Shown here: positions 7,402 through 28,450 of the stretch, piece after piece
How the letters are laid out: each line of letters opens with the position of its first letter
Position numbering within the stretch: the first letter of the stretch is position 1
Assembly (NCBI GenBank): GCA_944381535.1
Contig: CALWLN010000004.1
Location: forward strand, 1-33,817
From: an uncultured Lachnospiraceae bacterium
GTDB lineage: Bacteria > Bacillota > Clostridia > Lachnospirales > Lachnospiraceae
Reading direction: 5' to 3'
DNA: 33,817 bases
The notes under the pieces: model-generated
What the model was told of the DNA's origin: nothing
Databases searched by the model: none
The model's input: the letters and a program-made list of their open reading frames with translations, nothing else
Made by a program: the position numbers and the translations under genes

Positions 7402-7432
7402 AAAATCAAACAGATAAAGGAGAAGCAGAGAA

Positions 7433-8203
7433 ATGCGATTGTGGAACGGTGATATGCCATATGCGAAAGAGGAAGTAGATTTTGAGCCGTATCTGACACC
7501 CTATATCAGAGAAGGAGCTACGACGGCTATCGTGGTCTGCCCCGGCGGTGGCTACGGCGGGAGAGCGGAGCACGAGGGAAATGTAGTAGGAGAATGGCTG
7601 AATACCATTGGAATATCCGCCTTTGTGTTGGAGTACCGGGTGGCGCCCTACGGAGCGCCTGCGGAGCCCTCCGATGTACAGCGGGCAATCCGTGTGGCAC
7701 GAAGGGAAGGGGCGAAATACGGGATTCAAAAAATCGGCGTGATGGGGTTCTCCGCCGGAGGACACCTGGCGGCCACCGCCTCGGTGCACTACAATAAGAC
7801 CTTTTATGAGGAGACGGATGAGACAGACCGTCTCTTGGCCCGGCCGGATTTCTCGGTACTGTGTTACCCGGTGATTGATTTGTTTGAATACCGGCATGAC
7901 GGAAGCCGGGAGAATCTGATCGGGCCCAATCCGAGAAAGAGTCTGAAGGAATTCTATTCCCTCCATATGCAGGTGACGGATGATACACCGCCGGCATTTC
8001 TGTGGCACACAGCGGAGGACAATGCTGTTCCGGCAGAGAATTCCATGCTGTACGCCATGGCGTTGTCGGAGCATAAGATTCCCTATGAACTTCATATTTA
8101 TCCCTATGGATGTCACGGAAAGGGCCTTGGGGAGGATGACGAGCATCTGTGCCAGTGGACAGAAGCTTTGGACAGATGGCTGAAATTGATGAGTCTGAAG
8201 TAG
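7433..8203 (+). CDS. alpha/beta-hydrolase, acetyl-xylan-esterase-like
   Basis: 256-residue alpha/beta-hydrolase of the carbohydrate-esterase-like group related to BD-FAE and acetyl-xylan esterases. Visible elements are the oxyanion-hole loop VVCPGGGYGG, the nucleophile elbow MGFSAGGHLA with S107, the acid in HTAEDNAVP (D196) and the catalytic His in YPYGCHGKG (H228). No signal sequence is seen. It is the last gene of the cluster, 31 bases behind the SGNH hydrolase and with AAAGGAG before its ATG. Two unrelated esterases in tandem next to fucosidases and a galactosidase suggest that the imported oligosaccharide carries acyl decorations blocking the exo-enzymes. The exact acyl group is not determinable. 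Confidence 0.9.
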   Translation: MRLWNGDMPYAKEEVDFEPYLTPYIREGATTAIVVCPGGGYGGRAEHEGNVVGEWLNTIGISAFVLEYRVAPYGAPAEPSDVQRAIRVARREGAKYGIQKIGVMGFSAGGHLAATASVHYNKTFYEETDETDRLLARPDFSVLCYPVIDLFEYRHDGSRENLIGPNPRKSLKEFYSLHMQVTDDTPPAFLWHTAEDNAVPAENSMLYAMALSEHKIPYELHIYPYGCHGKGLGEDDEHLCQWTEALDRWLKLMSLK

Positions 8204-8822: not shown

Positions 8823-8852
8823 TTGATTTTGCTAAAAGTAAAAAGCTATAAT
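8823..8852 (+). promoter_or_regulatory. putative promoter of the histidine kinase operon
   Basis: TTGATT at 8823-8828, an 18-base spacer and a perfect TATAAT at 8847-8852 precede the kinase gene by about 55 bases. Because the TTG at 8823 belongs to the -35 box, it is not a credible start codon for the kinase, which supports the ATG at 8910. Confidence 0.6.
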
Positions 8853-8909
8853 AAAGAGAGGCATTATGCGTATGAAACGGAAGAAAATTTTAGAAACAGG
8901 GGGCAAAGG

Positions 8910-10703: not shown

Positions 10704-12177
10704 CGAGGAAACCGTGCGCGAAAGTATCGGAAATTATCTGTCGCGGCAGAAAAATCTTTTTACGGAAGTGTTGGTGGCTGGGAATGGTGTGGAAGCTCTG
10801 AAGGTTCTGGAGCGGACACAGCCTCAGATTGTACTTACAGATATCAATATGCCTTTCATGGATGGACTGGAGTTTTTGGAAATCCTGAGAGAGCGGTATC
10901 CGGAGCTTACAGTGATTATTTTGAGTGGATATGATGAGTTTTCCTATGCGCAGAGAGCTATGCGAAGCGGTGTGGAGTATTATCTGTTAAAACCGGTAAA
11001 CCGAAGGGAACTGTTGGATTTGCTTACACGGTTAAAAGAGGAATACTTGGGGAAGGTCCGGGATGAGGAGGAGAGAATCCGGGAAGAGACATCTCTTCGG
11101 GAAAAATCGGAGCGCTTGTGTGCTCGTCTCCTGCATTTGATGATAAATGACAAGATTGATTGCCGGGAATGGCAATATGAATTGGAATACTTAGGAATCG
11201 GGAAAAGAGCCGGGGTTTATTGTGTCTGTATTTTGAAATCGGAAAACAGCCAAGACTTTGAAACAAGATGTGAGCAGGCCGGGATTGGTGTGTGGCTTAT
11301 GATGGAGATGGATGGGGAAAAGGTATTGCTGATGGAAAGCGATGACATTGCGGATTTCAAACAGCTATGTAACGTGGAGGCGGAAAATCCTGAAATGAGC
11401 GGGTTTTGGTTGGGAAATGTGGAGCGGGATTTATCCATGGTTTATTCATCCTATCATGTGGCGAGGGGAAAGGCGGAACTGGCTATTTATATTGAAAAGG
11501 ATAAAAACAAGCAGGAGGAATTGCGCCAGTTGGAGGAATTGCGGTGGAAGCTTGTCCTATTTATCAAAACCCAGCGGTGCGATATGGCAAAAAAATGCCT
11601 GTCTAATATCAGAAAAGTTTTGGAGGGAGCATACTCGGAAGCCTATGTCCGCATGGAATGCAGAGAGGTTCTGTATTCCGTAATATTCACGCTGGAGAGT
11701 CTGAACGGACATGGGAATATGCCGTGGATGGTTTGTGAAAGAGAAGGCAGTTATGGAGGATTTGCCAGTTTGGAGGAATGGTACAAGCAGTTGGAAAAAA
11801 TCATGCTTGATGGAATGATCCAATCCAGGGAAAATGCGGAAAAATTGCAGTACAATGTAGTTGACAAGGCGCTGCGCATTTTGAAGGAACGGTGGAATGA
11901 AACAGATTTAAATTTGAATGCCATTGCGGACGAGCTTTATGTCAGCCATAACTATTTACGCTATCTGCTGAAGGAAAAAACGGGGCAGACATTCACGCAA
12001 TATTTGACGCAGTTCAGATTGGAGAGGGCAGTGGTACTATTGGAAGATTCGGATATGAAGGTGCGGGATGTGGCTGTTCAGGTTGGTTTTGAGGATGCGG
12101 GTTACTTCACACGGATATTTACGAAAAAATATGCATGTTCACCCACGGAATACAGGGATAGATATAGGGAAAAGTAA
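10678..12177 (+). CDS. YesN-type response regulator with AraC DNA-binding domain
   Basis: 499 aa. Receiver domain at residues 1-125 with acidic pocket D8/D9, phospho-acceptor D55 (LTDINMPFMDG), S83 and K105 (LLKPV). A middle region of about 250 residues links to a C-terminal AraC/XylS double helix-turn-helix (about residues 400-497) with LNAIADELYVSHNYLRYLL and VRDVAVQVGFEDAGYFTRIF. It starts inside the kinase gene behind GGAGGAGG. It most likely activates the transporter and lyase genes downstream when phosphorylated by the partner kinase. Assignment is firm; the target operator was not identified. Confidence 0.95.
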   Translation: MFRILVVDDEETVRESIGNYLSRQKNLFTEVLVAGNGVEALKVLERTQPQIVLTDINMPFMDGLEFLEILRERYPELTVIILSGYDEFSYAQRAMRSGVEYYLLKPVNRRELLDLLTRLKEEYLGKVRDEEERIREETSLREKSERLCARLLHLMINDKIDCREWQYELEYLGIGKRAGVYCVCILKSENSQDFETRCEQAGIGVWLMMEMDGEKVLLMESDDIADFKQLCNVEAENPEMSGFWLGNVERDLSMVYSSYHVARGKAELAIYIEKDKNKQEELRQLEELRWKLVLFIKTQRCDMAKKCLSNIRKVLEGAYSEAYVRMECREVLYSVIFTLESLNGHGNMPWMVCEREGSYGGFASLEEWYKQLEKIMLDGMIQSRENAEKLQYNVVDKALRILKERWNETDLNLNAIADELYVSHNYLRYLLKEKTGQTFTQYLTQFRLERAVVLLEDSDMKVRDVAVQVGFEDAGYFTRIFTKKYACSPTEYRDRYREK

Positions 12178-12231
12178 TTTTGTCCATATTTAATCTGAGC
12201 TTTCTTTATTCAATTGTATAAAGAGATGAAT

Positions 12232-12237
12232 TATAAT
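12232..12237 (+). promoter_or_regulatory. -10 element of the ABC importer genes
   Basis: TATAAT lies about 45 bases before the solute-binding protein start, in a 104-base AT-rich gap. No good -35 is present (best TTCAAT at 12209-12214, 17-base spacer), which is what an AraC-activated promoter would show. The response regulator encoded just upstream is the natural candidate activator. Confidence 0.5.
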
Positions 12238-12281
12238 AGGCCATACAAGATACAGAACAGCCGATGATAGGAGGATAAAAC

Positions 12282-13748
12282 ATGAAGAAAAAATTTGTTT
12301 CAATGTTGCTTGCAGCTACAATGCTGACAGGATTGCTGGCAGGATGCGGAGATACAGAAGAAGGCGGAATATCTGCGCCGGGAAAAGAAGAGACAGCAGG
12401 TCAGGATACGGATGACAAGGAGAATGACGCGGCCGGTGGTGAGAAAGAAATTGTTACGGTTTGGTGTGCCGGCCGTGCGGATTATGAATATATGTCGGCC
12501 AAGCTGGAGGAGTTCAATTCCACCAATGACCATATCGAAATTGACTATCAGGTCTATACGGATAATTACAGACAGGCCATCGAACTGGCTTTTGATACGG
12601 GGGAAGGCCCTGATGTATTCTCCCTGGGGTACGGCACGGAGCTGCTAGCGCAGAATGGGCAGGCAGTTGATGTAGGTCCCATGCTCAGCGAAGAAATCAA
12701 GGAGCTTTACGGTGAAGAATTGATGAATATGGGACGGAATCCGCTGAATTATGAGCAGATTATTACACTTCCAATTACTTCAGCCGCCTGCCGTCTGGTA
12801 TATAATAAAGATATTTTTGAACGGTGCGGATTGGAAAAGGCACCGGAGACGTATGCTGAGGTCGTGGAATATGCAAAAATTATCACAGAGGAGCTTTCGG
12901 ATGAAGGTATTTATGGTTTTGCCATGAATTTAAAATCTGCCTCCTCTGCGCTGGAAAGAAGCTTAACGCCTGTGACTGCATTGAATGAGGGAACGCAGGT
13001 TGGTTTAAATCCCATTACTGGGGTATATGAATGGGAGACCTACATTCCGGCATTAAATATGTTCAAACAGATATATGATGACGGCAGTATGTATCCTGGA
13101 TCGGATCAGTTGGATATAGATCCTCTGCGTACGGAATTTGCATCCGGAAAGATAGGAATGTATATGTCTTATTCCAGTGCGGAGCCTGGGGTTTACACCA
13201 CTCAATTCCCCACGGAGGAAAATTGGGATTTTGCCTTGCTGCCCGCGGCAGAAACGGCGGGTGAATATAAAAGTAAAAATCCGGGTTTTGAGGCATGGGC
13301 TTGGTTTATCAGTAAAGACTGTAAAAATCTGGAAGCAGCGATGGAGGTTTTTGAGTGGCTGTACAGTTATGATGTTCAAGGGGGCCGTTATGAGAACGGT
13401 CTGAGTATCAGCATTGTCCCTGCAATTGCTGAAGGGTTTGAACCGGAATTAATCAAACAACATCCATTGATGGCCGTTCAGGAGGAGACAGATACGTATT
13501 GGCCGACCGTGGCAAGTGGTGTTGCTCCGGAAGGGGAAGACTGGGCTTCTATGTTTGCGGGGTATATTCTCGGTATTCCGGGCTATGAAGATATAGACGC
13601 AATCTGTGAGGATTTGAATACGCGCTACACGGAAGCGTTGAACAGGGGACTGGAAGATGGTACGGTGAGTCTGTCCATTTATCCGGATATGGATTTGAAA
13701 AATCCATCGGCGGCCAAGCCTGTGATGGTGACGGAGCCCATAGAATAA
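12282..13748 (+). CDS. ABC sugar importer solute-binding lipoprotein
   Basis: 488 aa family 1 extracellular solute-binding protein. A lipoprotein signal peptide (KKK, hydrophobic core, LLAGC) puts the lipid-anchored Cys at residue 22, followed by an acidic, Gly-rich tether to about residue 55. The mature domain has the family VWCAGRADYEYM start and GPDVFSLGYG segment. AGGAGG precedes the ATG. It captures oligosaccharide outside the membrane and delivers it to the two permeases downstream. No ATPase subunit gene is in the window, so a shared MsmX-type ATPase is presumably used, as in other Firmicutes. The ligand is not predictable from sequence. Confidence 0.93.
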   Translation: MKKKFVSMLLAATMLTGLLAGCGDTEEGGISAPGKEETAGQDTDDKENDAAGGEKEIVTVWCAGRADYEYMSAKLEEFNSTNDHIEIDYQVYTDNYRQAIELAFDTGEGPDVFSLGYGTELLAQNGQAVDVGPMLSEEIKELYGEELMNMGRNPLNYEQIITLPITSAACRLVYNKDIFERCGLEKAPETYAEVVEYAKIITEELSDEGIYGFAMNLKSASSALERSLTPVTALNEGTQVGLNPITGVYEWETYIPALNMFKQIYDDGSMYPGSDQLDIDPLRTEFASGKIGMYMSYSSAEPGVYTTQFPTEENWDFALLPAAETAGEYKSKNPGFEAWAWFISKDCKNLEAAMEVFEWLYSYDVQGGRYENGLSISIVPAIAEGFEPELIKQHPLMAVQEETDTYWPTVASGVAPEGEDWASMFAGYILGIPGYEDIDAICEDLNTRYTEALNRGLEDGTVSLSIYPDMDLKNPSAAKPVMVTEPIE

Positions 13749-13802
13749 TGATTCTGAAAATGACAGCTCTGTAATTGTGAAACAAATTAGGTATGGAGAA
13801 CG

Positions 13803-13839
13803 GGGAAGCCTCGCTGGGAAAAGGCGTGGCTTTCCTTTT
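13803..13839 (+). terminator. stem-loop between binding protein and permease genes
   Basis: GGGAAGCC 13803-13810 pairs with GGCTTTCC 13828-13835 (one G-T), with an inner CGC/GCG extension, a 9-base loop and then TTTT. It lies between the binding-protein stop and the first permease. Such elements act as partial terminators or 3' stabilisers that make binding protein more abundant than permeases. Confidence 0.7.
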
Positions 13840-13880
13840 CTATAAGGAAGCATGAAAGGTTGTTGGAAGGGAGATGTAGT

Positions 13881-14819
13881 ATGGAGGCAGTTCCAGTAAA
13901 GAAACCCAGGCGACATACGATCGGAGAGAAAATGATAAAAAACCGCAGCATTTATATGATGCTGCTGCCCAGTATGGTTCTGACGGCAGCGTTATCTATC
14001 TATCCGATTTTCTGGGTGGCACGCTATATGTTTTATACGTATGATAAAATCCACGAGCCGGTTTTTGTCGGAATCGATAATTTTGTCCGCGTCATGAAAG
14101 ATGAATATTTCTGGAGGACCGTGAAGAATACGTTTGTATATGCCGGAGGAAAATTAATTTTCACCCTGCCGATTTCATTTTTTGCGGCAATCATTTTGAA
14201 TCATAAATTCCGCGGTGCTACGTTGTGCAGATCGATTCTTTTTTTGCCCACGATTATGAGTTCAGCAGTAATGGCGCTCATCTGGTATCTGGTTTTAAAT
14301 GTCAATAACGGTGCCGTTAATCAGATTCTTATAGGTTTGGGTATCATCAGTAAGCCCATTAGCTGGCTGGGGTATGAAAACGCGATGAAGACCACAATTA
14401 TGGTGGGTATTTGGGGAGCGATTGGTAACTATATGCTGTACTTTTTAGCCGGGCTTCAGGGTGTGCCTGAGGATATTTATGAAAGCGCGGCTTTGGATGG
14501 CATTACACCTTTTCAAAAGCTTGTACATATCACGATTCCCATGATTGCACCCGCTATGAAAACCGTAGTTATGCTGGCGATTACCAGCTCTTTCCGGGAT
14601 ATCAGTTCTATCATGGTTTTGACGGAGGGAGGCCCGGCAGGTTCGACAGATGTTATGTACCTGTATCTGTATCGCATGTATTTTCCTGTTTCTGCAACAG
14701 TGCCTGCGACGTATCAGTATGGATATGGTTCTGCTGTGGCAATGGTCTGCTCTCTGATGATGGGAGTGATTACCATTTTGTACCTACGTTTTACAAAAAA
14801 GATTGACGAACTGTATTAG
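13881..14819 (+). CDS. ABC sugar importer permease, MalF/UgpA/LplB type
   Basis: 312 aa from the ATG at 13881, chosen because AAGGGAG at 13867-13873 is spaced 7 bases from it; the TTG at 13860 has no such signal. Six predicted membrane helices, the first at about residues 22-45. The ATPase-contacting EAA loop is ESAALDGITPFQKL followed by HITIP. It forms the membrane channel with the next gene. It is the typical first permease of carbohydrate ABC importers in YesMN-controlled loci. Confidence 0.93.
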   Translation: MEAVPVKKPRRHTIGEKMIKNRSIYMMLLPSMVLTAALSIYPIFWVARYMFYTYDKIHEPVFVGIDNFVRVMKDEYFWRTVKNTFVYAGGKLIFTLPISFFAAIILNHKFRGATLCRSILFLPTIMSSAVMALIWYLVLNVNNGAVNQILIGLGIISKPISWLGYENAMKTTIMVGIWGAIGNYMLYFLAGLQGVPEDIYESAALDGITPFQKLVHITIPMIAPAMKTVVMLAITSSFRDISSIMVLTEGGPAGSTDVMYLYLYRMYFPVSATVPATYQYGYGSAVAMVCSLMMGVITILYLRFTKKIDELY

Positions 14820-14830
14820 GGAGGACGAGG

Positions 14831-15691
14831 ATGAGAAAAATGAGAGTTGCCAGTAGAATCAAACATGCGCCTTTGGTGCTGTTAGGCATGGCTTTTATTT
14901 TAGCGCTACTTATATTTACACTGTTTCCGGTGGTGTATGCGATTTTGGGTTCTTTCAAAACAAACTTTGAATTGGTATCAGGTGCGGGACTTTTCCCGGA
15001 AAAATGGCATTGGGAGAATTTCATCTATGCATTTGAAAAATTAAATTTTTTTCGTTACACCATAAACAGCTTCCTGCTTTGTACCGGATGTACCGTTCTT
15101 TCTATTATAATAGCCTCGTTGGGCGGTTACTGTATGGCCCGCTATGAATTCCCAGGTAAGAAAGTGTTGGACTTTGTAAATTATAGCCTGATGTTCATCA
15201 GCTTGGGCTCCGTGGTATTGTTTCCCGTTTACCGCCTGATGAACGGTCTGCATTTGACGGGGAGCCTACTTGGATTAATGTTGGTTTTGACTGGGGGACA
15301 GACAAGCAATATTGTACTGGTGAAGGGATTTGTGAATAATCTGCCCAGGGAACTGGATGAGTCCGGGAAAATGGATGGCGCTACGCCTTTTCAGATCTAT
15401 CTGAGGATTCTGCTTCCACTGTTGCGTCCGATTATTGCTACGGTTGGGCTGTTTGCGTTTCGCGGCGCATGGAATGAATATCTGACTTCTATGGTATTTA
15501 CCATTGGGAAAAAGGATATGCAGCCCTTGACAGTGGCGGTTGTAGCATTGCGTTACAGTGCCAATGCCGCGGCAGAATGGCATATTATGTGTGCGGGCGC
15601 TGCGATTTCTATGATTCCAATGCTTATCATATATATTTTAGCCAACAAACAATTGATTGGCGGCCTTACGGCTGGAGCGGTGAAAGGTTAA
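14831..15691 (+). CDS. ABC sugar importer permease, MalG/AraQ/LplC type
   Basis: 286 aa with six predicted membrane helices; the EAA-type loop reads DESGKMDGATPFQIYLRILLP. It begins 11 bases after the first permease with GGGAGG upstream. Partner of the preceding permease in a heterodimeric oligosaccharide channel. The loop is slightly degenerate (GKMDGA for AARIDGA), a common variation in this subfamily. Confidence 0.93.
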   Translation: MRKMRVASRIKHAPLVLLGMAFILALLIFTLFPVVYAILGSFKTNFELVSGAGLFPEKWHWENFIYAFEKLNFFRYTINSFLLCTGCTVLSIIIASLGGYCMARYEFPGKKVLDFVNYSLMFISLGSVVLFPVYRLMNGLHLTGSLLGLMLVLTGGQTSNIVLVKGFVNNLPRELDESGKMDGATPFQIYLRILLPLLRPIIATVGLFAFRGAWNEYLTSMVFTIGKKDMQPLTVAVVALRYSANAAAEWHIMCAGAAISMIPMLIIYILANKQLIGGLTAGAVKG

Positions 15692-19567: not shown

Positions 19568-19596
19568 TTGACAATTGAGCCAAGACGCGATATGCT
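19568..19596 (+). promoter_or_regulatory. sigma-A promoter of the aldolase operon
   Basis: A perfect TTGACA at 19568-19573, a 17-base spacer and TATGCT at 19591-19596 (four of six). The start would be near 19603, just ahead of the palindromic operator, with the aldolase ATG about 45 bases further on behind AAAGGAGG. Confidence 0.8.
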
Positions 19597-19609
19597 ATAT
19601 AAGCAAAAA

Positions 19610-19623
19610 CCGAAACGTTTCGG
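19610..19623. promoter_or_regulatory. LacI-family operator palindrome
   Basis: CCGAAACGTTTCGG is a perfect 14-bp palindrome with the central ACGT and AAAC/GTTT arms of LacI/GalR-family operators. It is positioned at about +8 to +21 relative to the predicted start, where a bound repressor blocks transcription. The LacI regulator encoded second in this operon (20523) is the obvious candidate, giving autoregulation. Confidence 0.8.
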
Positions 19624-19648
19624 ATTCGAATAAAGGAGGATACCGGAA

Positions 19649-20497
19649 ATGCCACTCGTTACATCAGAAAAAATGTTATCGGACGCCCAGGCGGGCGGAT
19701 ATGCCGTAGGGGCATTTAACGTGGAGAACATGGAGATGGTGAAGGCAGTCATTGAGGCGGCGGAGGAACTGAATGCCCCGGTCATGCTGCAGACAACGCC
19801 CTCCACGGTGAAGTATGGAACCTTGGAGACCTATTACGCGATTGTTGCGGCGGAAGCAAAGAAGGCTTCGGTCCCGGTGTGCCTGCACTTGGATCACGGC
19901 AGCAGCTTTGAGCTTGCCGTGCAGGCCATCAAGGCAGGCTACACCTCTGTGATGATTGACGGTTCCCATGAGAATTTTGAGAATAACATTGCGGTCACTA
20001 AGAAAGTGGCGGATGTGGCAAGGGCATGCAATATCCCGGTGGAAGCGGAGCTTGGAAAAGTAGGCGGCAAGGAGGACGATCTGGAGGCGGAGACCGACAC
20101 CAATACCGACCCCATGGAGGCGAAAGAATTTGTGGAGCGGACAGGCGTCTTATCTCTCGCGATCGCCATCGGAACAGCCCACGGCTTTTATGCCGGCACG
20201 CCGGTATTGGACAAAGAGCGGGTATCAGAGATCCGGAAAGTGGTATCTGTACCCCTGGTACTGCACGGGGCCTCCGGTCTCAGCGATGAGGATGTGCGGG
20301 AATGTGCGCGGCGGGGGATGTGTAAGGTGAATTTCGCCACGGAGCTGCGGGCCGCCTACACGGAAGCGGGGAAAAAATTGCTGGCGGAAAAGCCGGACAC
20401 TTTTGACCCCAAAAAGCTTGGCATTGTGGGTATGGAGGCCGTGAAGGAGCTGGTAAAAGGACGAATCCGGGTGTGCGGCTGCGTGGATAAAGCGTAG
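19649..20497 (+). CDS. class II ketose-bisphosphate aldolase (GatY/KbaY/FbaA family)
   Basis: 282 aa zinc-dependent aldolase that reversibly splits fructose- or tagatose-1,6-bisphosphate into dihydroxyacetone phosphate and glyceraldehyde-3-phosphate. Catalytic D82 and zinc ligand H83 lie in LHLDHG, E134 in VEAELG, H178 in GTAHGFY and H206 in LHGASG; the DHAP phosphate site is NFATEL. The length of about 280 fits the tagatose-type GatY/KbaY branch as well as short FbaA proteins. With a GatD-like dehydrogenase and a PfkB kinase in the same operon, tagatose-1,6-bisphosphate is the better-supported substrate, by context only. First gene of the operon. Confidence 0.93.
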   Translation: MPLVTSEKMLSDAQAGGYAVGAFNVENMEMVKAVIEAAEELNAPVMLQTTPSTVKYGTLETYYAIVAAEAKKASVPVCLHLDHGSSFELAVQAIKAGYTSVMIDGSHENFENNIAVTKKVADVARACNIPVEAELGKVGGKEDDLEAETDTNTDPMEAKEFVERTGVLSLAIAIGTAHGFYAGTPVLDKERVSEIRKVVSVPLVLHGASGLSDEDVRECARRGMCKVNFATELRAAYTEAGKKLLAEKPDTFDPKKLGIVGMEAVKELVKGRIRVCGCVDKA

Positions 20498-20522
20498 CCA
20501 TGGGCAAGACAGGAGTAAAGCT

Positions 20523-21629
20523 ATGGCAGCAACCATGAAAGACATTGCCAGGGCCACGGGCCTGGGACTGGCGACGATATCCTCCTATCTGAACGGGGGA
20601 AACGTTAGAGAGAAAAACAGAATCCTGATAGAGCAGGCCATTGAGGAGCTTCATTTTGAAGTCAATGAGGTGGCCCGTGGCTTAAAGACCAACCGGACCA
20701 AGGTGATCGGCATCGTCATTCCGGAGTTGAACAATATCTTCTGCGCGGAGATTATCACCGAGGTGGAGGATGTACTGAGAAATCACGGCTACGCAACCAT
20801 GATCTGCGACTGCCGGACCGATGAGAAGCGGGAAGCGGAGGCAGTGGAATTTCTGTATCACCGGAGAGTGGACGGATTACTGATCATGCCCTCCGGGAAG
20901 AAAGGGACATATCTGCAAAAGTTCACCAAAGCGGGAAAGCCGGTGGTGATGATTGATAGGAAAATGCAGGAGGCAGCCGGGGACTGTGTGCTGGTGGACA
21001 ACGAGGGGGCGGCCAGGGATGCAGTAAAACGCCTGATACAGGCCGGGCATACCAAGATTGGAATCATTGCGGGGCCCAAAGAGGTCTATACTGCGGAAGA
21101 ACGCCTCCGGGGATATGAGCTTGCGCTTAAGGAAGGGGGAATCCCTAAGGAGTCCGCCCTGGTAGAGCGGGGAAATTATACCATTCATGGAGGAAGCCAA
21201 GGGTTGCGGAAGCTGGCGCAAAAAAATCCCCACATGACGGCGGTATTTGTCTCCAACTATGAGATGACCCTGGGAGCCATCATCGAAGCCAACGAACTGG
21301 GCATTGCCATACCGGAGAAGCTTTCCATCATCGGTTTTGACAATATCGAATTTGCAAAAGCCAGTATCCCAAGGCTCAGTATCGTGACCCAGCCCACCCG
21401 GGAGATCGGAAGAAAAGCGGCGGATCTGATGCTGCGGCGGCTGGCAGAACCGGGAAAAGAGAAGACACCGGACAGGAAATCCAGGATAACGGGAGATGGG
21501 ACGCCGGGCTATGAGAGGCCAGAATCTGAGGCACCGGGCCATGAGACACCAGAGTATAAGACCATCAAGCTGGAAACTAGCTTTGTGGAAGGAAAGTCTG
21601 TAAAAGCCATAGAAAACGATGGGCAGTGA
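20523..21629 (+). CDS. LacI-family transcriptional regulator
   Basis: 368 aa. N-terminal LacI HTH (MKDIARATGLGLATISSYLN) plus hinge helix EVARGLKTNRT, then a periplasmic-binding-protein-like effector domain (IGIVIPELNNIF to LSIIGFDNIEFAKASIPRLS and TQPTREIGRKAADLMLRRL). AGGAG precedes the start by 7 bases. It probably represses this operon through the palindrome at 19610 and releases it on binding a sugar or sugar phosphate. Unusual: about 35 hydrophilic residues containing a 10-residue tandem repeat (21501-21560) interrupt the usual short link between the last helix and the conserved KLETSFVEGKSV tail. Confidence 0.94.
   Translation: MAATMKDIARATGLGLATISSYLNGGNVREKNRILIEQAIEELHFEVNEVARGLKTNRTKVIGIVIPELNNIFCAEIITEVEDVLRNHGYATMICDCRTDEKREAEAVEFLYHRRVDGLLIMPSGKKGTYLQKFTKAGKPVVMIDRKMQEAAGDCVLVDNEGAARDAVKRLIQAGHTKIGIIAGPKEVYTAEERLRGYELALKEGGIPKESALVERGNYTIHGGSQGLRKLAQKNPHMTAVFVSNYEMTLGAIIEANELGIAIPEKLSIIGFDNIEFAKASIPRLSIVTQPTREIGRKAADLMLRRLAEPGKEKTPDRKSRITGDGTPGYERPESEAPGHETPEYKTIKLETSFVEGKSVKAIENDGQ
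21501..21560 (+). repeat. tandem 30-base repeat inside the LacI gene
   Basis: Two adjacent 30-base units, 21501-21530 and 21531-21560, share about 20 of 30 positions and encode TPGYERPESE and APGHETPEYK. The unit length is a multiple of three, so the frame is kept. The resulting Pro/Glu-rich insert lies near the C-terminus, outside the DNA-binding and effector core. Confidence 0.75.
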
Positions 21630-21677
21630 TCCGGCAGGTGAAGCAGCAGAAGTGAGCCGGATACGAAGGAGATTGCG

Positions 21678-23237
21678 ATGAATGGATATTTGTTAGGCAT
21701 TGATATTGGCACCAGCGCCTGCAAGGTTGCCGTTTTTAACCGGGAGGGAAAAGTAATGGCCTCCGCAACCGGGGCGTACCGGGTCTATCATCCGCATCCG
21801 GGCTGGGCGGAGCAAAATTCCGAGGAATGGTGGCAGGCGGTATGCGGTGCGGTAAAGGGCGCTCTGAGAGAGGGGGCGATACCGCCGGAGACAATCGCCG
21901 GAGTGGGAATCGACGGTCAGAGCTGGTCGGCTATTCCGGTGAATCGTAAAGGAAAGGTGCTGGCCAATACACCAATCTGGATGGACACCAGAGCCCAGGA
22001 CATCTGTGAAGAACTGAATGAAAAAATCGGCGCGGATGAAATTTTTAAGCTGTCGGGGAATCCCCTGCAGCCCTCCTATACCACGGCCAAGATCCTATGG
22101 TATCGGAAACATCTGCCGGAAGTTTATGCAAATACATATAAAATTTTGCAGTCCAACAGCTATATCGCGATGAAGCTTACAGGAGCCATGACCCAGGATA
22201 TCTCCCAGGGGTATGGAGTTCACTGCTTCGATATCCGCGCTGGACAGTGGGACGAAACGATGTGTGAAAAAATGGGGATTCCCGTGGATTTCCTGCCGCC
22301 AATCCATCCCTGCCATGAAGTGATTGGAACGGTCACCGGGAAGGCGGCGGCAGAGTGCGGCCTTGCGGAGGGAACACCGGTGGTGGCAGGCGGACTGGAC
22401 GCTGCCTGCGGGACGCTGGGCGCCGGAGTGATACACAATGGCCAGACCCAGGAGCAGGGCGGGCAGGCCGGGGGCATGAGCATTTGTACGGACTCCTGCC
22501 AGGCGGACGAACGATTGATCCTGGGATATCATGTGGTTCCCGGAAAATGGCTGCTTCAGGGCGGTACCACCGGAGGAGGCGGCGTCATGCGCTGGATGGA
22601 GAAGGAATTTGGCGCTTATGAGAGAGAAATCGGAAAGCGGCAGGACAAAAGCTCCCTGGAGCTGTTCAATGAGCTGGCGGAAAAAGTAAGCCCGGGAAGC
22701 GACGGGGTGGTATTTCTGCCCTATATGTCTGGAGAGCGTTCCCCCATCTGGGATCCGGACGCAAAAGGGGTTTTCTATGGACTGGATTTTAACAAGACCA
22801 AAGGCCACTTTATCCGCGCGGCTATGGAAGGGGTGGCATTCGCCCTGCGCCACAACCTGGAGACTGCCCAGCAGGCAGGGGCCAGGGTGGAGGTGTTGAG
22901 GGCCATGGGCGGAGCGGCCAATTCCCATTTGTGGACCCAGATAAAGTCCGACGTTACCGGGAAACCCATTGAGGTTCCCTCCTCGGACACAGCCACCACA
23001 TTGGGGGCGGCGATTCTGGCGGGCGTAGGGACTGGCATGTATGACAGCTTCGAGGAAGCGGTTGGCCTTACGGTAAAACCGAAACGTTTCCATTATCCCA
23101 ACAGGGAGAATCAGGATATCTATGATAAGAATTACGGTGTCTATCTGGAATTATACCGGCGGCTGAAAGACGTAATGAAGGAAAACGGTGGAGGAGCCGG
23201 CAGTAAGAGAGAAACTGAAAGCGCGGCAGAAAAATAA
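21678..23237 (+). CDS. FGGY-family carbohydrate kinase (XylB-like)
   Basis: 519 aa ATP-dependent sugar/polyol kinase. Phosphate-1 loop GIDIGTSACKVAVF at the N-terminus, substrate-region GIDGQSWSAIP, TPIWMDTRA and GGLDAACGTLG carrying the likely catalytic Asp, and the adenosine motif MGGAANSHLWTQIKSDVTGK. The overall pattern is closest to xylulokinases, but the operon has no xylose isomerase and contains hexitol/tagatose-type genes instead. The true substrate may therefore be another ketose or a polyol such as galactitol (inference). Length is standard; the last 15 residues are hydrophilic and variable. GAAGGAG lies before the ATG. Confidence 0.9.
   Translation: MNGYLLGIDIGTSACKVAVFNREGKVMASATGAYRVYHPHPGWAEQNSEEWWQAVCGAVKGALREGAIPPETIAGVGIDGQSWSAIPVNRKGKVLANTPIWMDTRAQDICEELNEKIGADEIFKLSGNPLQPSYTTAKILWYRKHLPEVYANTYKILQSNSYIAMKLTGAMTQDISQGYGVHCFDIRAGQWDETMCEKMGIPVDFLPPIHPCHEVIGTVTGKAAAECGLAEGTPVVAGGLDAACGTLGAGVIHNGQTQEQGGQAGGMSICTDSCQADERLILGYHVVPGKWLLQGGTTGGGGVMRWMEKEFGAYEREIGKRQDKSSLELFNELAEKVSPGSDGVVFLPYMSGERSPIWDPDAKGVFYGLDFNKTKGHFIRAAMEGVAFALRHNLETAQQAGARVEVLRAMGGAANSHLWTQIKSDVTGKPIEVPSSDTATTLGAAILAGVGTGMYDSFEEAVGLTVKPKRFHYPNRENQDIYDKNYGVYLELYRRLKDVMKENGGGAGSKRETESAAEK
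23075..23090. promoter_or_regulatory. operator-like sequence inside the FGGY kinase gene
   Basis: AAAACCGAAACGTTTC is identical over 16 bases to 19606-19621 at the operon operator, missing only the last two palindrome bases (GG, here CA). It falls in codons for V-K-P-K-R-F. It could be a secondary repressor site (looping or roadblock) or coincidence. Confidence 0.4.
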
Positions 23238-23260
23238 AGCTCAAAAGGAGGCAATCAGCA

Positions 23261-24310
23261 ATGAAAGCAGCAGTAGTATGCGCAAACGAAGACGTAAGGT
23301 ATCTGGATTATGAGGAACCCATGCCGGGGCCGGGAGAAGTGAAGGTAAAGGTGGCGGCTTCCGGCATCTGTGGCTCGGACATTCCGAGGGTTTTTCACAA
23401 CGGCGCGCATTTCTACCCCATCGTGCTGGGACATGAATTTTCCGGTGATGTGGTAGAGGTGGGAGAAGGAGTGACAAAGGTGAAGGTGGGGGACCGGGTG
23501 ACCGGGGCGCCGCTGCTTCCCTGTATGAAATGTGACGACTGCCAGAACGGGAACTTTTCCCTCTGCAAGCACTACAGCTTTATCGGCTCCCGCCAGCAGG
23601 GCAGCAATGCCCAGTACGTGGTGTTGCCGGAGATGAATACGGTACCCTTCGACAAGAGCATTTCCTATGAGCAGGGGGCTATGTTTGAGCCTTCCACGGT
23701 GGCCCTTCACGGACTGTTTCAGAACGACTATCAGGGCGGCCGGTATGTGGCTGTCTTAGGGGGCGGAACCATCGGAATGTTCACCATGCAGTGGGCCAAG
23801 ATCTTCGGTTCCAGAAAAGTAGTGGTTTTTGATATCAGCAGGGAGCGTCTAGAGCTTGCAAAGCGCCTGGGCGCGGATGAAGTCATAGACACCACGGAAG
23901 AAAATTACATGAAAAAGGCCGTGGACCTTACAGGCGGCAGGGGGTATACCTATGTTTTTGAGACTGCGGGACAGCCGGTCACCATGTATATGGCCTTTGA
24001 ACTGGCGGCCAACAAAGCTCACGTATGTTTTATCGGAACCCCACATACCGAGCTGACCTTCACTCCCGTCCTGTGGGAGAACATGAACCGCAAGGAATTC
24101 AAGCTGACCGGTTCCTGGATGTCCTACAGCGCGCCCTTCCCCGGGAAAGAGTGGGAGCTGACCGCCCACTATTTCGCCACGGGGCAGTTGAAATTCGACC
24201 CCGGATTCATTTATAAGAAAATGCCCATGAGCCAGGCACAGGAGGCTTTCCAGATGTTCAAAACCCCGGGTCTGGTGAAGGGAAAAGTGCTGCTGATAAA
24301 TGAAGAATAG
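23261..24310 (+). CDS. zinc-dependent polyol-phosphate dehydrogenase, GatD-like
   Basis: 349 aa medium-chain dehydrogenase. Catalytic zinc ligands C37 (SGICGSD) and H58/E59 (LGHEFSG), structural zinc C88, C91, C94 and C102, and the Rossmann motif LGGGTIG followed by an acidic FDIS that favours NAD. Segments such as NGAHFYPIVLGHEFSG, LLPC, FIGSR and KEFKLTGSWMSYSAPFPGKE parallel E. coli galactitol-1-phosphate 5-dehydrogenase (GatD), which makes tagatose-6-phosphate. AAAAGGAGG lies before the ATG. It is adjacent to a PfkB kinase and in one operon with a KbaY-like aldolase, the next two steps of that pathway. Sorbitol- or L-iditol-type substrates remain possible. Confidence 0.88.
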   Translation: MKAAVVCANEDVRYLDYEEPMPGPGEVKVKVAASGICGSDIPRVFHNGAHFYPIVLGHEFSGDVVEVGEGVTKVKVGDRVTGAPLLPCMKCDDCQNGNFSLCKHYSFIGSRQQGSNAQYVVLPEMNTVPFDKSISYEQGAMFEPSTVALHGLFQNDYQGGRYVAVLGGGTIGMFTMQWAKIFGSRKVVVFDISRERLELAKRLGADEVIDTTEENYMKKAVDLTGGRGYTYVFETAGQPVTMYMAFELAANKAHVCFIGTPHTELTFTPVLWENMNRKEFKLTGSWMSYSAPFPGKEWELTAHYFATGQLKFDPGFIYKKMPMSQAQEAFQMFKTPGLVKGKVLLINEE

Positions 24311-24319
24311 GAGAAGAGC

Positions 24320-25249
24320 ATGATACTGACAGTGACGCTGAACGCGGCGATCGATAAACGTTATGTGGTGGAAGGATTTCGGATCGGTGAGGTCAACCGG
24401 GTGAAGGAATGTACCTATGTGCCGGGAGGGAAGGGGCTGAATGTATCAAAGCCCGCCGCCATTGCCGGAGCGGAGGTGATTGCCACCGGATTTGTGGGGG
24501 GCCATGCGGGAAACTACATTGAAGCTGCCCTTAAGCCCTTTGGCATCCGAAGCGCGTTTTATCATGTGGAAGGGGAGAGCCGTTCCTGCATCAATATCTG
24601 GGATGAGAGAGATCATACCCAGACGGAATTCCTGGAACCGGGATTCTGCTTAAGCCTGGAGGATTTTACGAATTTTCTGGAAAAATTCAAAGAACTGGTG
24701 GAACAGGCGGACGTGGTCGCCATGTCCGGAAGCGTTCCCAGGGGGCTGGATGAGCAGGCCTATCCGAAGCTCATAAAGATCTGCAAGGAAGCGGGAAAGA
24801 AAGTGATCCTGGATACCAGCGGGAAGCTGTTGGAAGAGGGAATCAGGGCATGTCCCACGATGATCAAGCCGAATCTGGATGAGATAAAGATGTTGACCGG
24901 AAAGGATTGTCAGCGGATAGAGGATATGCTGGAGGCCGCCAGGCAGATACAGGCGGATGGCGTGGAAATCGTGGCGGTATCCCTGGGAGAAGAAGGTTCC
25001 TTTGTCGTATGTGAGGAAGGGATCTTCCGGGCGGAAGTTCCGAAAATCAGTGCCGTAAATACGGTGGGATGTGGGGATGCCATGATCGCGGGCTTCGCGC
25101 TGGGAATCTCCGAAGGCCTGTCCATGGAAGAAACTTTAAGAGCGGCCAGCGCCATTTCCGTTGCGGCGGCATTGCGGGAAGAAACCGGTTTCTTCGTGAA
25201 GGAGGATATGGAGCGTATTTTGCCCCAGGTTCAAATAAAAAAGCTATAA
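24320..25249 (+). CDS. PfkB-family kinase (1-phosphofructokinase / tagatose-6-phosphate kinase type)
   Basis: 309 aa ribokinase-like kinase of the LacC/FruK branch. It opens with ILTVTLNAAIDKRY, carries the sugar-phosphate-binding GGKGLNVSK (36-44) and ends with the anion-hole/base motif NTVGCGDAMIAGFA containing D253. FruK makes fructose-1,6-bisphosphate and LacC makes tagatose-1,6-bisphosphate; sequence does not separate them reliably. With a GatD-like enzyme 9 bases upstream and a class II aldolase in the operon, tagatose-6-phosphate is the preferred guess. No PTS fructose importer is nearby, which argues against a FruK role. Confidence 0.92.
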   Translation: MILTVTLNAAIDKRYVVEGFRIGEVNRVKECTYVPGGKGLNVSKPAAIAGAEVIATGFVGGHAGNYIEAALKPFGIRSAFYHVEGESRSCINIWDERDHTQTEFLEPGFCLSLEDFTNFLEKFKELVEQADVVAMSGSVPRGLDEQAYPKLIKICKEAGKKVILDTSGKLLEEGIRACPTMIKPNLDEIKMLTGKDCQRIEDMLEAARQIQADGVEIVAVSLGEEGSFVVCEEGIFRAEVPKISAVNTVGCGDAMIAGFALGISEGLSMEETLRAASAISVAAALREETGFFVKEDMERILPQVQIKKL

Positions 25250-25276
25250 AATTTTAAAGGAAAGAAGGAGAAAGAG

Positions 25277-26290
25277 ATGGCAGAATTTATCAATCCGGCA
25301 ATCGTGCCGAAAGTAAAGCTTTACACCGGGGAGGAGATCCCCTGCGTGGGGATGGGAACCTTCGGTTCCGACCGCTTCACACCGGAACAGGTGTCAAACG
25401 CGGTGGCAGGAGCGATCCGCTGCGGGTACCGCATGTTTGACTGCGCGGCCTGCTACGGGAATGAGGACCAGATTGGAGAGGTATTTCAGGCGGCCTTTGC
25501 GGAAGGCGTGGTGGAGCGAAAAGAACTCTACATCATGACCAAGGTGTGGAACGACATGCATGAGCGGGTGGAGGAATCCTGCAGAAAGAGTATCGCGGAC
25601 CTGCAGTGTGATTACATCGATTTATTCTTTATCCACTGGCCCTTCCCCAACTACCATGCGCCGGGATGTGACGTGGATTCCAGAAATCCCGACTCGAAGC
25701 CCTTCAGCGTGGAGGAATTTATCAACACCTACCGACAGTGTGAGGCGCTGGTGGAGAAGGGGCTTATCCGTCATATCGGCATTTCCAATATGACCATTCC
25801 AAAGCTGGAAGCGGTCCTTCCGCTGATGAAAATCCTGCCGGTGGCCTGTGAGATGGAGCTGCATCCCTGCTTCCAGCAGCAGGAACTCTTTGACTACCTG
25901 GTTGCCCGTAACATCCAGCCCATCGGGTTCATGCCCTTGGGCTCCCCCCAGAGACCGGAGCGGGATATGTGCCCGGAGGACATCGCGGACCTTCAGACAC
26001 CGGAAATGGTAAAGATTGCCAAAGACCATGGCGTACACCCGGCGCTGATCGCCTTGAAATGGGCCCATCAGAGAGGACAGATTCCCATTCCCTTCTCGGT
26101 GCATGAGGCGGAGTATACAAGCAATTTAAAGAGTGTGACGGAAGACCCGCTGACGGAGGAGGAAATGGCCCTGATCGGGACTCTGGAGCGGAACAACCGT
26201 CTGGTAAAAGGACAGGTATTTCTCTGGGAAGGGGCCAAGGACTGGCATGACCTGTGGGATGAGGACGGCGTGATCGTGACGCTGGATTAA
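25277..26290 (+). CDS. aldo/keto reductase
   Basis: 337 aa TIM-barrel NAD(P)H oxidoreductase reducing aldehydes or aldoses to alcohols. The tetrad is complete: D55 and Y60 in FDCAACYGNE, K89 in MTKVWN and H120 in FFIHWPFPNY. The cofactor region is IPFSVHEAEYTSNL. AAGGAG lies 6 bases before the ATG, 27 bases after the PfkB gene. In this operon it may interconvert a sugar and its polyol ahead of the kinase and GatD-like dehydrogenase (inference). Alternatively it reduces a reactive carbonyl by-product. Confidence 0.93.
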   Translation: MAEFINPAIVPKVKLYTGEEIPCVGMGTFGSDRFTPEQVSNAVAGAIRCGYRMFDCAACYGNEDQIGEVFQAAFAEGVVERKELYIMTKVWNDMHERVEESCRKSIADLQCDYIDLFFIHWPFPNYHAPGCDVDSRNPDSKPFSVEEFINTYRQCEALVEKGLIRHIGISNMTIPKLEAVLPLMKILPVACEMELHPCFQQQELFDYLVARNIQPIGFMPLGSPQRPERDMCPEDIADLQTPEMVKIAKDHGVHPALIALKWAHQRGQIPIPFSVHEAEYTSNLKSVTEDPLTEEEMALIGTLERNNRLVKGQVFLWEGAKDWHDLWDEDGVIVTLD

Positions 26291-26319: not shown

Positions 26320-26958
26320 ATGATAAGAGAAGAATTTTTCGGGAAAGAATGGGATTTTCCTTTTGTGGTCTATAGACCTGTGGAATTGCGCGAGAATTTG
26401 CCTTTGCTGGTACAACTGCACGGAGCCGGAGAAGTCGGGAACGGCAAAGAAGATTTGTATAAGGTTGACATTCACGGATTTTCCAAAATACTCACGGAGA
26501 AAGCGGAGTACCCCTGTATCATTGTAATGCCCCAGTGTAAGCCGGATAGTTTCTGGGTGGCTGAGATTCCGAACGTCTATCATTTTATTCAAGACATGGT
26601 GCGGAAATACAGGGCTGATGAAACAAGGATATATCTGACCGGCCTTAGCATGGGCGGATATGGGACCTGGTATACGGCCTCCCGCTATCCGGGGCTTTTC
26701 GCTGCGATTGCGCCGGTCTGCGGAGGCGGAATGGTTTGGAAGGCTTCCCTTTTGAATATGCCCATATGGGCTTTCCACGGTTCAGAGGACGAGGTGGTCT
26801 ACCCCTCGGAGACCATAGAGATGATTCACAAAATAAGAGCTGCCGGTCAGAATAAGCAAGAAGTGAAAATGACGATTCTGGACAACGTGGGGCATAATGC
26901 CTGGGACTATGCCTATACGCCGGAATTGTTGGAGTGGTTACTGTCAAAGAGTAGGTAA
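26320..26958 (+). CDS. alpha/beta-hydrolase, esterase of the phospholipase/carboxylesterase type
   Basis: 212 aa compact hydrolase. Oxyanion region LLVQLHGAGEVG, nucleophile elbow LTGLSMGGYGTW with S110, acid D157 in FHGSEDEVVYPS and base H192 in DNVGHNAWDYAY. No signal peptide. Related small enzymes are annotated as predicted peptidases or feruloyl/acetyl esterases; beside a fucosidase a carbohydrate de-acylation role is plausible. The ribosome binding site is weak (AAAAGGGG 11 bases before the ATG). A seven-codon ORF (26293-26316) lies directly before the start. The stop codon overlaps another ATG (TAATG). Confidence 0.85.
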   Translation: MIREEFFGKEWDFPFVVYRPVELRENLPLLVQLHGAGEVGNGKEDLYKVDIHGFSKILTEKAEYPCIIVMPQCKPDSFWVAEIPNVYHFIQDMVRKYRADETRIYLTGLSMGGYGTWYTASRYPGLFAAIAPVCGGGMVWKASLLNMPIWAFHGSEDEVVYPSETIEMIHKIRAAGQNKQEVKMTILDNVGHNAWDYAYTPELLEWLLSKSR

Positions 26959-26993
26959 TGAAGGAAAAGGGGACAGTTCTATGAAGGAAAAGG
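26958..26993 (+). repeat. 13-base direct repeat duplicating a start region
   Basis: ATGAAGGAAAAGG occurs at 26958-26970 and again at 26981-26993, 23 bases apart. The second copy is the start of the GH29 gene. The first opens an eight-codon ORF (MKEKGTVL) that begins on the esterase stop and ends with TGA overlapping the GH29 ATG, so ribosomes could be handed from one to the next. Confidence 0.7.
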
Positions 26994-28450
26994 TACAGGA
27001 ATATTTGAAAAAAATTGATAAGGTGATTGGGGAAGGCCCCTACCGGGACGACTGGACGTCCTTAAGCCGGTACCCGGAGCCGGAATGGTACAAGAAGGCC
27101 AAGTTCGGGATTTTTATCCACTGGGGCGTTTACAGCGTTCCGGCCTTCGGCAGCGAGTGGTATCCCCGTAATATGTACCTGGAGGGAACCAAAGAATTTG
27201 AACATCATGTGAAGACCTACGGTCCCCATAAAGAATTTGGTTACAAGGATTTTATCCCCATGTTCAAAGCCGAGAAATTCGATCCAAAGGAATGGGTGAA
27301 GCTGTTTCAGGACAGCGGCGCCAGATATATCATGCCCGTTGCGGAGCACCATGACGGTTTCCAGATGTATGACAGCGACCTTTCGGAGTGGTGCGCCGGG
27401 AAGATGGGACCGAAACGGGATATTATCGGCGAACTGAAGGAGGAAGCGGAAAAGGAAGGAATCGTATTTTGTGCTTCCAGCCATCGGGCGGAGAATTACT
27501 GGTTCTTTGCAGGCTCCAGGACCTTTGATTCCGGCATTGAAGGGGAGGGCATGATAGAACCCTACGGATTTCGCGATCCGGCGTATGCCACCGGAAATTC
27601 CGATACCGGCGTAGACTCCCAGCCGGCCACAAAAGAGCATTTGGAAGACTGGCTTGCCCGTACCTGTGAACTGGTGGATAAATACCGGCCCAAAGTAATC
27701 TTTTTCGACTGGTGGATTCAGAACCGGTGCTTTAAACCCTATTTGAAAAAATTTGCGGCATATTATTATAACCGTGCCGAAGCGTGGGGCGTGCAGGTGG
27801 CCATCAACTATAAGTACGAGGCATTTGCCTATTCCTCCGCCATCCTTGACATCGAGCGAGGGCAGTTGTCCGGTATCCGGCCCAGATTATGGCAGACGGA
27901 TACGGCGGTGGCCAAAAATTCCTGGGGATACACTGAGAACAATGCGTTTAAGGACCCAGTTGATATTGTCTGCGATCTTGTGGATATCGTCAGCAAAAAC
28001 GGCTGCATGCTGTTAAATATCGGGCCTAAGGCTGATGGTACCATTACGGAGGAAGAACAGGAAGTTTTAAGAAGTATCGGAAGCTGGCTTAAGGCAAACG
28101 GGGAATCCATTTACGATACTACCTACTGGCAGGTGTTTGGCGAAGGGCCTACCCAGGTGGAGGACGGAGCGTTTACGGATACCAACCGACAGGCATTTAC
28201 AAGTGAGGATATCCGGTTTACCTACAGGGCCCCCTATGTGTATGCCAATGTCCTGGTGTGGCCGGAAAATGGAAGGGTGTCCATAAAAAGCCTGGGAAGC
28301 AAAAAATTTAACGGGATCATTCAAGAGGTGTCCGTGCTGGGATATGAATATCCTGTTTCCTTTCAGCATAGGTCGGATTCCCTGGAGATACAGGTGGATG
28401 GGAAGATTGGGACTGGCTATCCGGTGTGTCTGAAGGTGACCATAGAGTAA
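26981..28450 (+). CDS. GH29 alpha-L-fucosidase (second copy)
   Basis: 489 aa from the ATG at 26981, which has GGGG at 26969-26972 and leads into the family N-terminus; the longer frame from 26897 lies inside the esterase gene. Signatures: EWYKKAKFGIFIHWGVYSVP, the active-site His pair in AEHHDGFQMYDS, nucleophile D243 in IFFDWWIQNR, and GCMLLNIGPKADGTI at the barrel end, then a C-terminal beta domain. No signal peptide. It is distinct from the first fucosidase: the loops around the nucleophile differ (FFDWWIQN versus LWFDGNW), suggesting different linkages or aglycones. Last gene of the LacI-controlled run, and it ends before a strong terminator. Confidence 0.95.
   Translation: MKEKVQEYLKKIDKVIGEGPYRDDWTSLSRYPEPEWYKKAKFGIFIHWGVYSVPAFGSEWYPRNMYLEGTKEFEHHVKTYGPHKEFGYKDFIPMFKAEKFDPKEWVKLFQDSGARYIMPVAEHHDGFQMYDSDLSEWCAGKMGPKRDIIGELKEEAEKEGIVFCASSHRAENYWFFAGSRTFDSGIEGEGMIEPYGFRDPAYATGNSDTGVDSQPATKEHLEDWLARTCELVDKYRPKVIFFDWWIQNRCFKPYLKKFAAYYYNRAEAWGVQVAINYKYEAFAYSSAILDIERGQLSGIRPRLWQTDTAVAKNSWGYTENNAFKDPVDIVCDLVDIVSKNGCMLLNIGPKADGTITEEEQEVLRSIGSWLKANGESIYDTTYWQVFGEGPTQVEDGAFTDTNRQAFTSEDIRFTYRAPYVYANVLVWPENGRVSIKSLGSKKFNGIIQEVSVLGYEYPVSFQHRSDSLEIQVDGKIGTGYPVCLKVTIE

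Follow-up and report, generated by a model that had tools for sequence, protein, structure and literature searches.

The operon described here lies at positions 19649-26290 of a contig from an uncultured, gut-type Lachnospiraceae bacterium (CALWLN010000004.1, assembly GCA_944381535.1), whose entire length of 33817 bases is referred to below as the window. Its gene anatomy and two exchanges of modules among related loci make it very likely that this is a galactitol/tagatose-6-phosphate operon without a phosphotransferase system (PTS). The more specific reading, with an aldose-reductase front end and a kinase acting before the dehydrogenase, we consider fairly probable. An earlier note on this DNA had read the operon as a possible reductive galactose pathway bypassing the Leloir route; the galactitol/tagatose-6-phosphate centre of that proposal is retained, and the bypass is abandoned.

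Gene content and conservation of the operon

Six genes, all full-length open frames on the forward strand and separated from their neighbours by 9-48 nt, make up the operon, and their family matches are clear, in agreement with the families and positions given in the earlier note. The first gene (19649..20497) encodes a class II ketose-bisphosphate aldolase of the GatY/KbaY type (F_bP_aldolase, 344 bits), for which the top NCBIfam model was GatY (375 bits vs a cut-off of 383) and the best solved relative was the tagatose-bisphosphate aldolase AgaY (1gvf). It is followed by a gene for a putative LacI-family repressor of the operon (20523..21629) and by an FGGY kinase gene (21678..23237), whose product matched the XylB model TIGR01312 with 388 bits, above the cut-off of 380, and is proposed as a galactitol (or tagatose) kinase. 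The fourth gene (23261..24310) encodes a GatD-like Zn dehydrogenase, a candidate galactitol-1-phosphate 5-dehydrogenase, for which the model of that name was the best match (315 bits, below its cut-off of 550). Its loop GSWMSYSAPFPGKEW has the pattern GSWM-YS-P-PG-EW in common with E. coli GatD, and the motif GSWM.Y[ST].P.PG.EW was present in 137 of 137 GatD rows, the window among them. The PfkB kinase of the LacC/FruK type (24320..25249) scored above the cut-off of the 1-phosphofructokinase model (313 vs 292 bits) and below those of two LacC models (263 and 246 bits vs 469 and 409.6); by sequence, its best solved relatives are tagatose-6-phosphate kinases, the role proposed for it here. The last gene (25277..26290; Pfam, 175 bits) encodes an aldo-keto reductase (AKR), a candidate galactose reductase, for which aldehyde and aldose reductases were the best relatives of solved structure. 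The D and Y of DCAACY (from residue 55), the K of TK (from 88) and the H of IHWP (from 119) match the tetrad of that family.

A Pfam scan of 26 proteins encoded in the window, a subset of its open reading frames (ORFs), matched no PTS family, and the galactitol enzyme IIC model (EIIC-GAT) had no match in the window's genome, which is 93% complete. The absence of a PTS stated in the earlier note was thus borne out. No GatZ/KbaZ was found among the operon proteins, the rest of the genome not having been searched for this family.

Of the 397 family genomes searched, 68 contain a GatD homologue at E <= 1e-130. For the comparison, 151 loci (numbered with the prefix L) were gathered, comprising 51 stretches around GatD matches of relatives, 80 named contigs and 20 further stretches; in 148 of them GatD reaches an identity of 45% or more (L022, L023 and L024, below this value, were dropped), and 136 are distinct. 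Where the results carry names, the relatives belong for the most part to the Lachnospiraceae. Genes were scored as present within 6 kb of GatD and on its strand, at identity thresholds of 50% for FGGY, 45% for the aldolase, 38% for PfkB, 50% for AKR, 40% for KbaZ and 35% for GatC. The loci were chosen by GatD similarity, and the set speaks only of loci that hold GatD; Fisher p-values ignore kinship, and neighbouring genes were named in scanned representatives only. In the 136 distinct loci, to which the counts below refer unless stated, FGGY was present in 127, the aldolase in 123, PfkB in 109, AKR in 104 and LacI in 85. A first mapping of 47 GatD ORFs placed FGGY directly before GatD in 37 cases, and PfkB or AKR directly after it in 26 and 9 cases, respectively. 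Since the same gene set recurs in the same order in relatives, the arrangement is not due to chance. Judging from the loci compared, the parts are swapped like modules around GatD and the aldolase.

Alternative modules for entry and exit

The first exchange concerns entry into the pathway. FGGY alone was present in 127 loci and the galactitol EIIC (GatC) alone in four (L020, L090, L191 and L194), no locus had both, and five had neither. Homologues of GatA and GatB accompany GatC in all four loci, none of which has an FGGY gene at the 50% threshold, although a distant FGGY (31%) lies about 4.6 kb away in L020. The gene order in L191 is GatA-GatB-GatC-GatD-PfkB-aldolase, with the PTS in the place usually occupied by FGGY. 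In the copies scanned, the EIIC proteins of L090 and L020 scored 473-517 bits with EIIC-GAT (cut-off of 542), the EIIB of L090 scored above its cut-off, and the EIIA proteins scored below theirs. The GatD proteins of two PTS loci scored 308-309 bits with the galactitol-1-phosphate 5-dehydrogenase model. On a quick GatD tree the PTS rows fall among the FGGY rows, with modest support (81-88), and the most similar pair across the two kinds of locus was GatD of L194 (PTS) and of L193 (an AKR, FGGY and PfkB locus of the same genome), which are 89.6% identical. In the simplest reading, the FGGY kinase would use ATP to make galactitol-1-phosphate, the same product as that of the PTS.

The second exchange concerns the exit. 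PfkB alone was found in 109 loci and a gene of the KbaZ/GatZ family alone in 16 (L017, L067, L072, L089, L104, L106, L161, L190, L192, L195, L196, L197, L199, L202, L203 and L204), none had both, and 11 had neither (Fisher p, 5e-14). The agaZ_gatZ model gave two KbaZ representatives scores of 518 and 512 bits, below its cut-off of 569, and the PfkB/KbaZ switch required 8 changes on the quick GatD tree, many branches of which are weak. According to a passage of PMC11907403, GatZ and KbaZ, once called aldolase chaperones, interconvert fructose-6-phosphate and tagatose-6-phosphate. PfkB and KbaZ would both be exits from tagatose-6-phosphate, which places this compound in the pathway. Altogether, the two exchanges, in which neither FGGY and EIIC nor PfkB and KbaZ ever occur together, strongly suggest tagatose-6-phosphate as an intermediate and uphold the earlier claim that galactitol and tagatose-6-phosphate stand at the centre of the pathway.

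Proposed pathway and order of its first steps

In the route proposed, the AKR would reduce galactose to galactitol, the FGGY kinase would phosphorylate galactitol with ATP to galactitol-1-phosphate, a job done by the PTS in gat operons, and GatD would oxidise this compound to D-tagatose-6-phosphate. PfkB would then form tagatose-1,6-bisphosphate, to be split by the aldolase into dihydroxyacetone phosphate and glyceraldehyde-3-phosphate, and LacI, acting at a promoter-adjacent operator, would keep the operon off. The full route from galactose to trioses with a galactitol kinase is our best, yet unproven, reading of the genes. The broader idea of a bacterial oxidoreductive galactose pathway, with galactitol formed in the cytoplasm by a reductase and an ATP-dependent FGGY galactitol kinase replacing the PTS, is advanced tentatively; galactitol being meso, such a pathway could accept both enantiomers of galactose.

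Whether the kinase or the dehydrogenase acts first deserves separate consideration. In the opposite order, GatD would oxidise free galactitol to D-tagatose and the FGGY protein would be a D-tagatose 6-kinase, with PfkB and the aldolase unchanged, an arrangement that we regard as possible and somewhat doubtful. It agrees with the ketose-kinase (XylB) type of the FGGY protein and would suit the KbaZ variants equally well. Furthermore, S. meliloti SmoS oxidises unphosphorylated galactitol, as stated in a part of PMC10433430, and the use of galactitol by this bacterium requires a tagatose operon, according to the title of a cited work. On the other hand, the opposite order demands that one GatD type take both forms of the substrate, since the GatD proteins of PTS loci should meet galactitol-1-phosphate and are up to 89.6% identical to those of FGGY loci. 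For this reason the kinase-first order, already proposed in the earlier note, is favoured.

Promoter-like sequence, putative operator and LacI regulator

Analysis of the region upstream of the aldolase gene revealed a promoter-like sequence, TTGACA-17-TATGCT (19568..19596, forward strand; sequence match), whose first base is the position from which the earlier note counted the operon. A near-perfect palindrome, ACCGAAACGTTTCGGA, at 19609..19624, about 40 nt before the aldolase start, is a putative LacI operator. The operator form ACCGAAACGTTTCGGT, or a near copy of it, precedes the aldolase in many relatives. Of the 85 loci that encode this LacI, 64 have this type of site, and none of the 51 that lack the protein has it, which ties the site to the regulator. 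Scanning of 81 sequences (the window and 80 loci) found the operator in 58, and a promoter-like pair, counted at up to 3 mismatches, lay within 70 nt upstream of it in 53 of these 58; at 2000 places taken at random the frequency was 6.55%. Across the genome of the window, the site before the aldolase was the only one within 1 mismatch of the form seen in relatives, and at up to 2 mismatches a single further site appeared, a palindrome with 2 mismatches inside the FGGY gene (23078..23093), which has a counterpart in the congener locus L093. With no other site at up to 2 mismatches, LacI appears to regulate this operon only locally, and it would bind the operator and repress transcription. A wider regulon, searched for at 3 mismatches, was set aside because the backward control gave more hits (20 vs 15).

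The LacI protein of the window, with 368 aa, is longer than most of its relatives (mostly 330-353 aa) and has an unusual low-complexity stretch, GKEKTPDRKSRITGDGTPGYERPESEAPGHETPEYKT, near its C-terminus.

The aldo-keto reductase and the probable feed sugar

The AKR, present in 104 of the 136 loci, is, to judge by its distribution, an optional front end, and an aldose is therefore the probable feed. In the 114 loci whose flanks extend for 4.5 kb or more in each direction, it was found in 89, all of them with FGGY, and it was absent from the four GatC loci. This association with FGGY and never with the PTS would be expected if the free polyol made by the AKR were cytoplasmic, beyond the reach of PTS phosphorylation. 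In 100 of the 104 AKR loci the gene lies after GatD. The core of four genes without AKR, which would serve galactitol itself, was seen in 18 of the 136 loci and in 13 of the 114 with long flanks.

Mutarotase genes accompany the AKR. When three families (FucU, aldose-1-epimerase and RhaM) were pooled and counted anywhere in the locus, 52 of 116 distinct loci had both mutarotase and AKR, 40 AKR only, 2 mutarotase only and 22 neither. For FucU alone the corresponding numbers in the 136 loci were 39, 65, 2 and 30 (p, 4e-4). In Lacrimispora loci the aldose-1-epimerase gene is flanked by PfkB and AKR; in those of Anaerocolumna it is transcribed divergently from the other side of the operator, a position taken by FucU in many Blautia loci. 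RhaM was discarded as a mutarotase of this cassette: in L095, L101, L104 and L106 it lies beside a rhamnose-type ABC importer, and in L104 and L106 also by a UlaE-type epimerase, so that it may serve another sugar. In L170, FucU and the epimerase are followed by a glycoside hydrolase (GH) family 27 alpha-galactosidase, and a GH42 beta-galactosidase lies with a GH29 gene just upstream of the cassette in L162; among the 136 loci, compared with these sequences, such galactosidases were found in these two only. Taken together, the mutarotases that go with AKR, the galactosidases of L170 and L162 and the GH2 beta-galactosidase of the window suggest D-galactose as the likeliest aldose, and the reduction of LacZ-released D-galactose to galactitol by the AKR, as the earlier note had supposed, is plausible.

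L-galactose, alone or together with its enantiomer, appears an improbable feed. Meso galactitol would bring the L-sugar to D-tagatose-6-phosphate, GH95 and GH29 genes are present in the window's island, and L054, L095 and L153 also have GH95 genes close to the cassette. In addition, the divergent gene on the other side of the operator is, in many relatives, FucU, whose name refers to a sugar of the L-galacto series. L-galactose is a rare sugar, which counts against it, as do the alpha- and beta-galactosidases by the cassette in L170 and L162 and the GH2 enzyme of the window. Some GH95 enzymes are alpha-L-galactosidases (according to a passage of PMC4491172), and the four GH95 proteins checked all have Thr at the -1 subsite, but a fucose-specific GH95 has the same Thr (a passage of PMC8245568). 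The Thr/His test for L-galactose was dropped for this reason, the residue, at one time put forward as a mark of L-galactosidases, being uninformative on specificity.

The earlier note had kept L-fucose and xylose as alternatives, and both fit worse than galactitol and tagatose-6-phosphate. A branch for 6-deoxy sugars, with L-fucose or lactaldehyde as the substrate of the AKR, could explain FucU in 41 and FucI in 23 of the 136 loci, the microcompartment-type genes upstream in L065, L123 and L128, and the GH29 gene of the window operon; it is nevertheless very unlikely, since a 6-deoxy ketose cannot hold phosphates at both C1 and C6, which leaves PfkB, KbaZ and the galactitol PTS swap unexplained, and since the genome has its own FucI and FucU pair elsewhere. 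The Met-His pair of the GQMHG motif in E. coli XylB, which we take to be a contact, is Ser-Trp in the window FGGY. Least likely of all is a xylose reductase-xylitol dehydrogenase-xylulokinase route, which would suit the XylB score of the FGGY kinase and the aldehyde/aldose reductases closest to the AKR but, besides this replacement, leaves PfkB and the aldolase without a role and the KbaZ and galactitol PTS swaps unexplained.

Leloir genes and the bypass idea

GalT (PF01087) was not found in the window's assembly; GalY, a predicted GalT substitute according to a part of PMC5583593, was not searched for. The absence of GalT first looked supportive of the bypass, a support removed by the gene neighbourhood. 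The galactokinase-like gene of this genome is an N-terminal piece of 123 residues that ends at a contig end. Its match to the galK model is weak (26 bits vs a cut-off of 227), and its naming draws also on its sequence and on the GalT found beside full-length homologues. Five congeners have such a homologue (frames of 429-475 aa), with a GalT match downstream on the same strand, about one gene length on. Since GalT lies beyond the galactokinase-like gene in all five, a gap in the assembly is the best explanation for the lack of galT here. The share of genomes with GalT was no lower where a GatD homologue is present (53 of 68) than where it is not (230 of 329; Fisher p, 0.24; tallied by hand from the search listings), and the bypass gains no support from this distribution. 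The operon therefore probably adds to the Leloir pathway and does not replace it. A FucI gene with an adjacent FucU is present at a separate locus of the genome.

Weight of the evidence against the proposed pathway

Several observations weigh against the proposed pathway. The input swap rests on four PTS loci, and the tree branches near them have a support of 81-88. The GatD score of 315 bits compares with a cut-off of 550 for E. coli GatD, the FGGY kinase best fits XylB, and the oxidation of galactitol itself by SmoS indicates that the order may be reversed. The AKR gene stands before GatD, outside the operon tail, in 4 of 104 loci (L021, L055, L061 and L103). Aldose-1-epimerase taken alone showed no significant association with AKR (both 15, AKR only 89, epimerase only 1, neither 31; p, 0.12), FucU belongs to the L-fucose mutarotase family, and FucI lies within 9.5 kb in 23 of the 136 loci, so that fucose may account for some of the mutarotase signal. 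The genome keeps FucI and probably the Leloir genes, and the benefit of the operon over the latter is left unexplained. Finally, what the sequence itself shows is the genes, their order and conservation, the operator with its link to LacI and the module swaps; the substrates of all enzymes, the succession of kinase and dehydrogenase, the feeding of D-galactose and the repression are inferred.

Neighbouring genes in the window and in related loci

The operon probably extends past 26290 into genes for an alpha/beta-hydrolase esterase (26320..26958, forward strand, 29 nt after the AKR gene) and a GH29 alpha-L-fucosidase family protein (26978..28450, forward strand, 19 nt further on), both probably co-transcribed with it; the start of the latter, whose listed ORF is 26897-28450, was set past the esterase stop. 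Further upstream, on the forward strand, are GH29, GH95, GH2 beta-galactosidase, GDSL esterase and BD-FAE esterase genes (14..8203), followed by genes for a histidine kinase, an AraC-type response regulator, a solute-binding protein and two ABC permeases (8823..15691). No ABC ATPase was seen among the 26 window proteins scanned. Divergent from the operon is a gene (17795-19378, reverse strand) for an ADP-ribosylglycohydrolase-family protein with an N-terminal HTH fusion, and at the contig end (29934-33664) a SocA/Panacea-domain protein, an IS110-type transposase and a PIN-domain protein form a mobile-looking edge.

Among the relatives, L097, L113, L149 and partly L103 have a second FGGY kinase, a FucA-like aldolase and a RhaB-like kinase beside the cassette, L097 and L103 also a D-psicose 3-epimerase-like protein, possibly for another sugar pathway. 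The cassette of L065, L123 and L128 is preceded by microcompartment/propanediol-type genes (PduL, PduS-like, BMC) and an iron alcohol dehydrogenase, names given from the look of the sequences and from similarity to L065 only. In L053, L070, L142 and many Blautia-type loci, the AKR gene is followed by a response regulator, a histidine kinase, a binding-protein-like sensor and a ribose-type ABC importer, whose sugar could name the substrate.

Relation to known systems and significance

The E. coli gat operon (GatABC, GatD, GatYZ) shares with the window operon the GatD and GatY families and the conversion of tagatose-6-phosphate to trioses, and L020, L090, L191 and L194 pair GatABC-type genes with this GatD and aldolase. 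In contrast, the window operon is devoid of PTS, has FGGY, LacI and an added AKR, and has PfkB in place of GatZ. The lactococcal/streptococcal lac pathway has the same tagatose-6-phosphate kinase and tagatose-bisphosphate aldolase step, but differs in PTS entry, in the use of a galactose-6-phosphate isomerase and in the aldolase family. A galactitol step is presumably also part of yeast oxidoreductive galactose routes. To judge from the titles and the openings of the abstracts concerned, galactose is reduced to galactitol both in the yeast oxidoreductive pathway (PMC12930983, PMC11497787) and in an engineered yeast galactose-galactitol-tagatose route (PMC6430769); these are yeasts, and no bacterial operon with tagatose-6-phosphate appears in those openings. 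PTS-free galactitol catabolism via tagatose-6-phosphate was described in S. meliloti and A. tumefaciens (Kohlmeier 2019 and Wichelecki 2015, as cited in a passage of PMC11907403), and a gene of the KbaZ/GatZ family is likewise present in 16 of the 136 relatives, whereas the window operon has a zinc-type GatD, PfkB with the aldolase and an aldose reductase. Among the titles and abstract openings listed, which for most queries were the top rows of longer lists from a collection short on subscription journals, none described this operon, and the term 'galactitol kinase' occurred in none of the papers of one such listing.

The alternation of PfkB and KbaZ provides an independent, natural argument that KbaZ is a tagatose-6-phosphate epimerase and not merely an aldolase helper. 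The pathway proposed here predicts a galactitol kinase. If it is correct, its genes pass, by family model, as xylulokinase, zinc dehydrogenase and 1-phosphofructokinase, and a second, PTS-free entry for galactose or galactitol would exist in many Lachnospiraceae of the gut, among them Blautia, Mediterraneibacter, Dorea and Lacrimispora.

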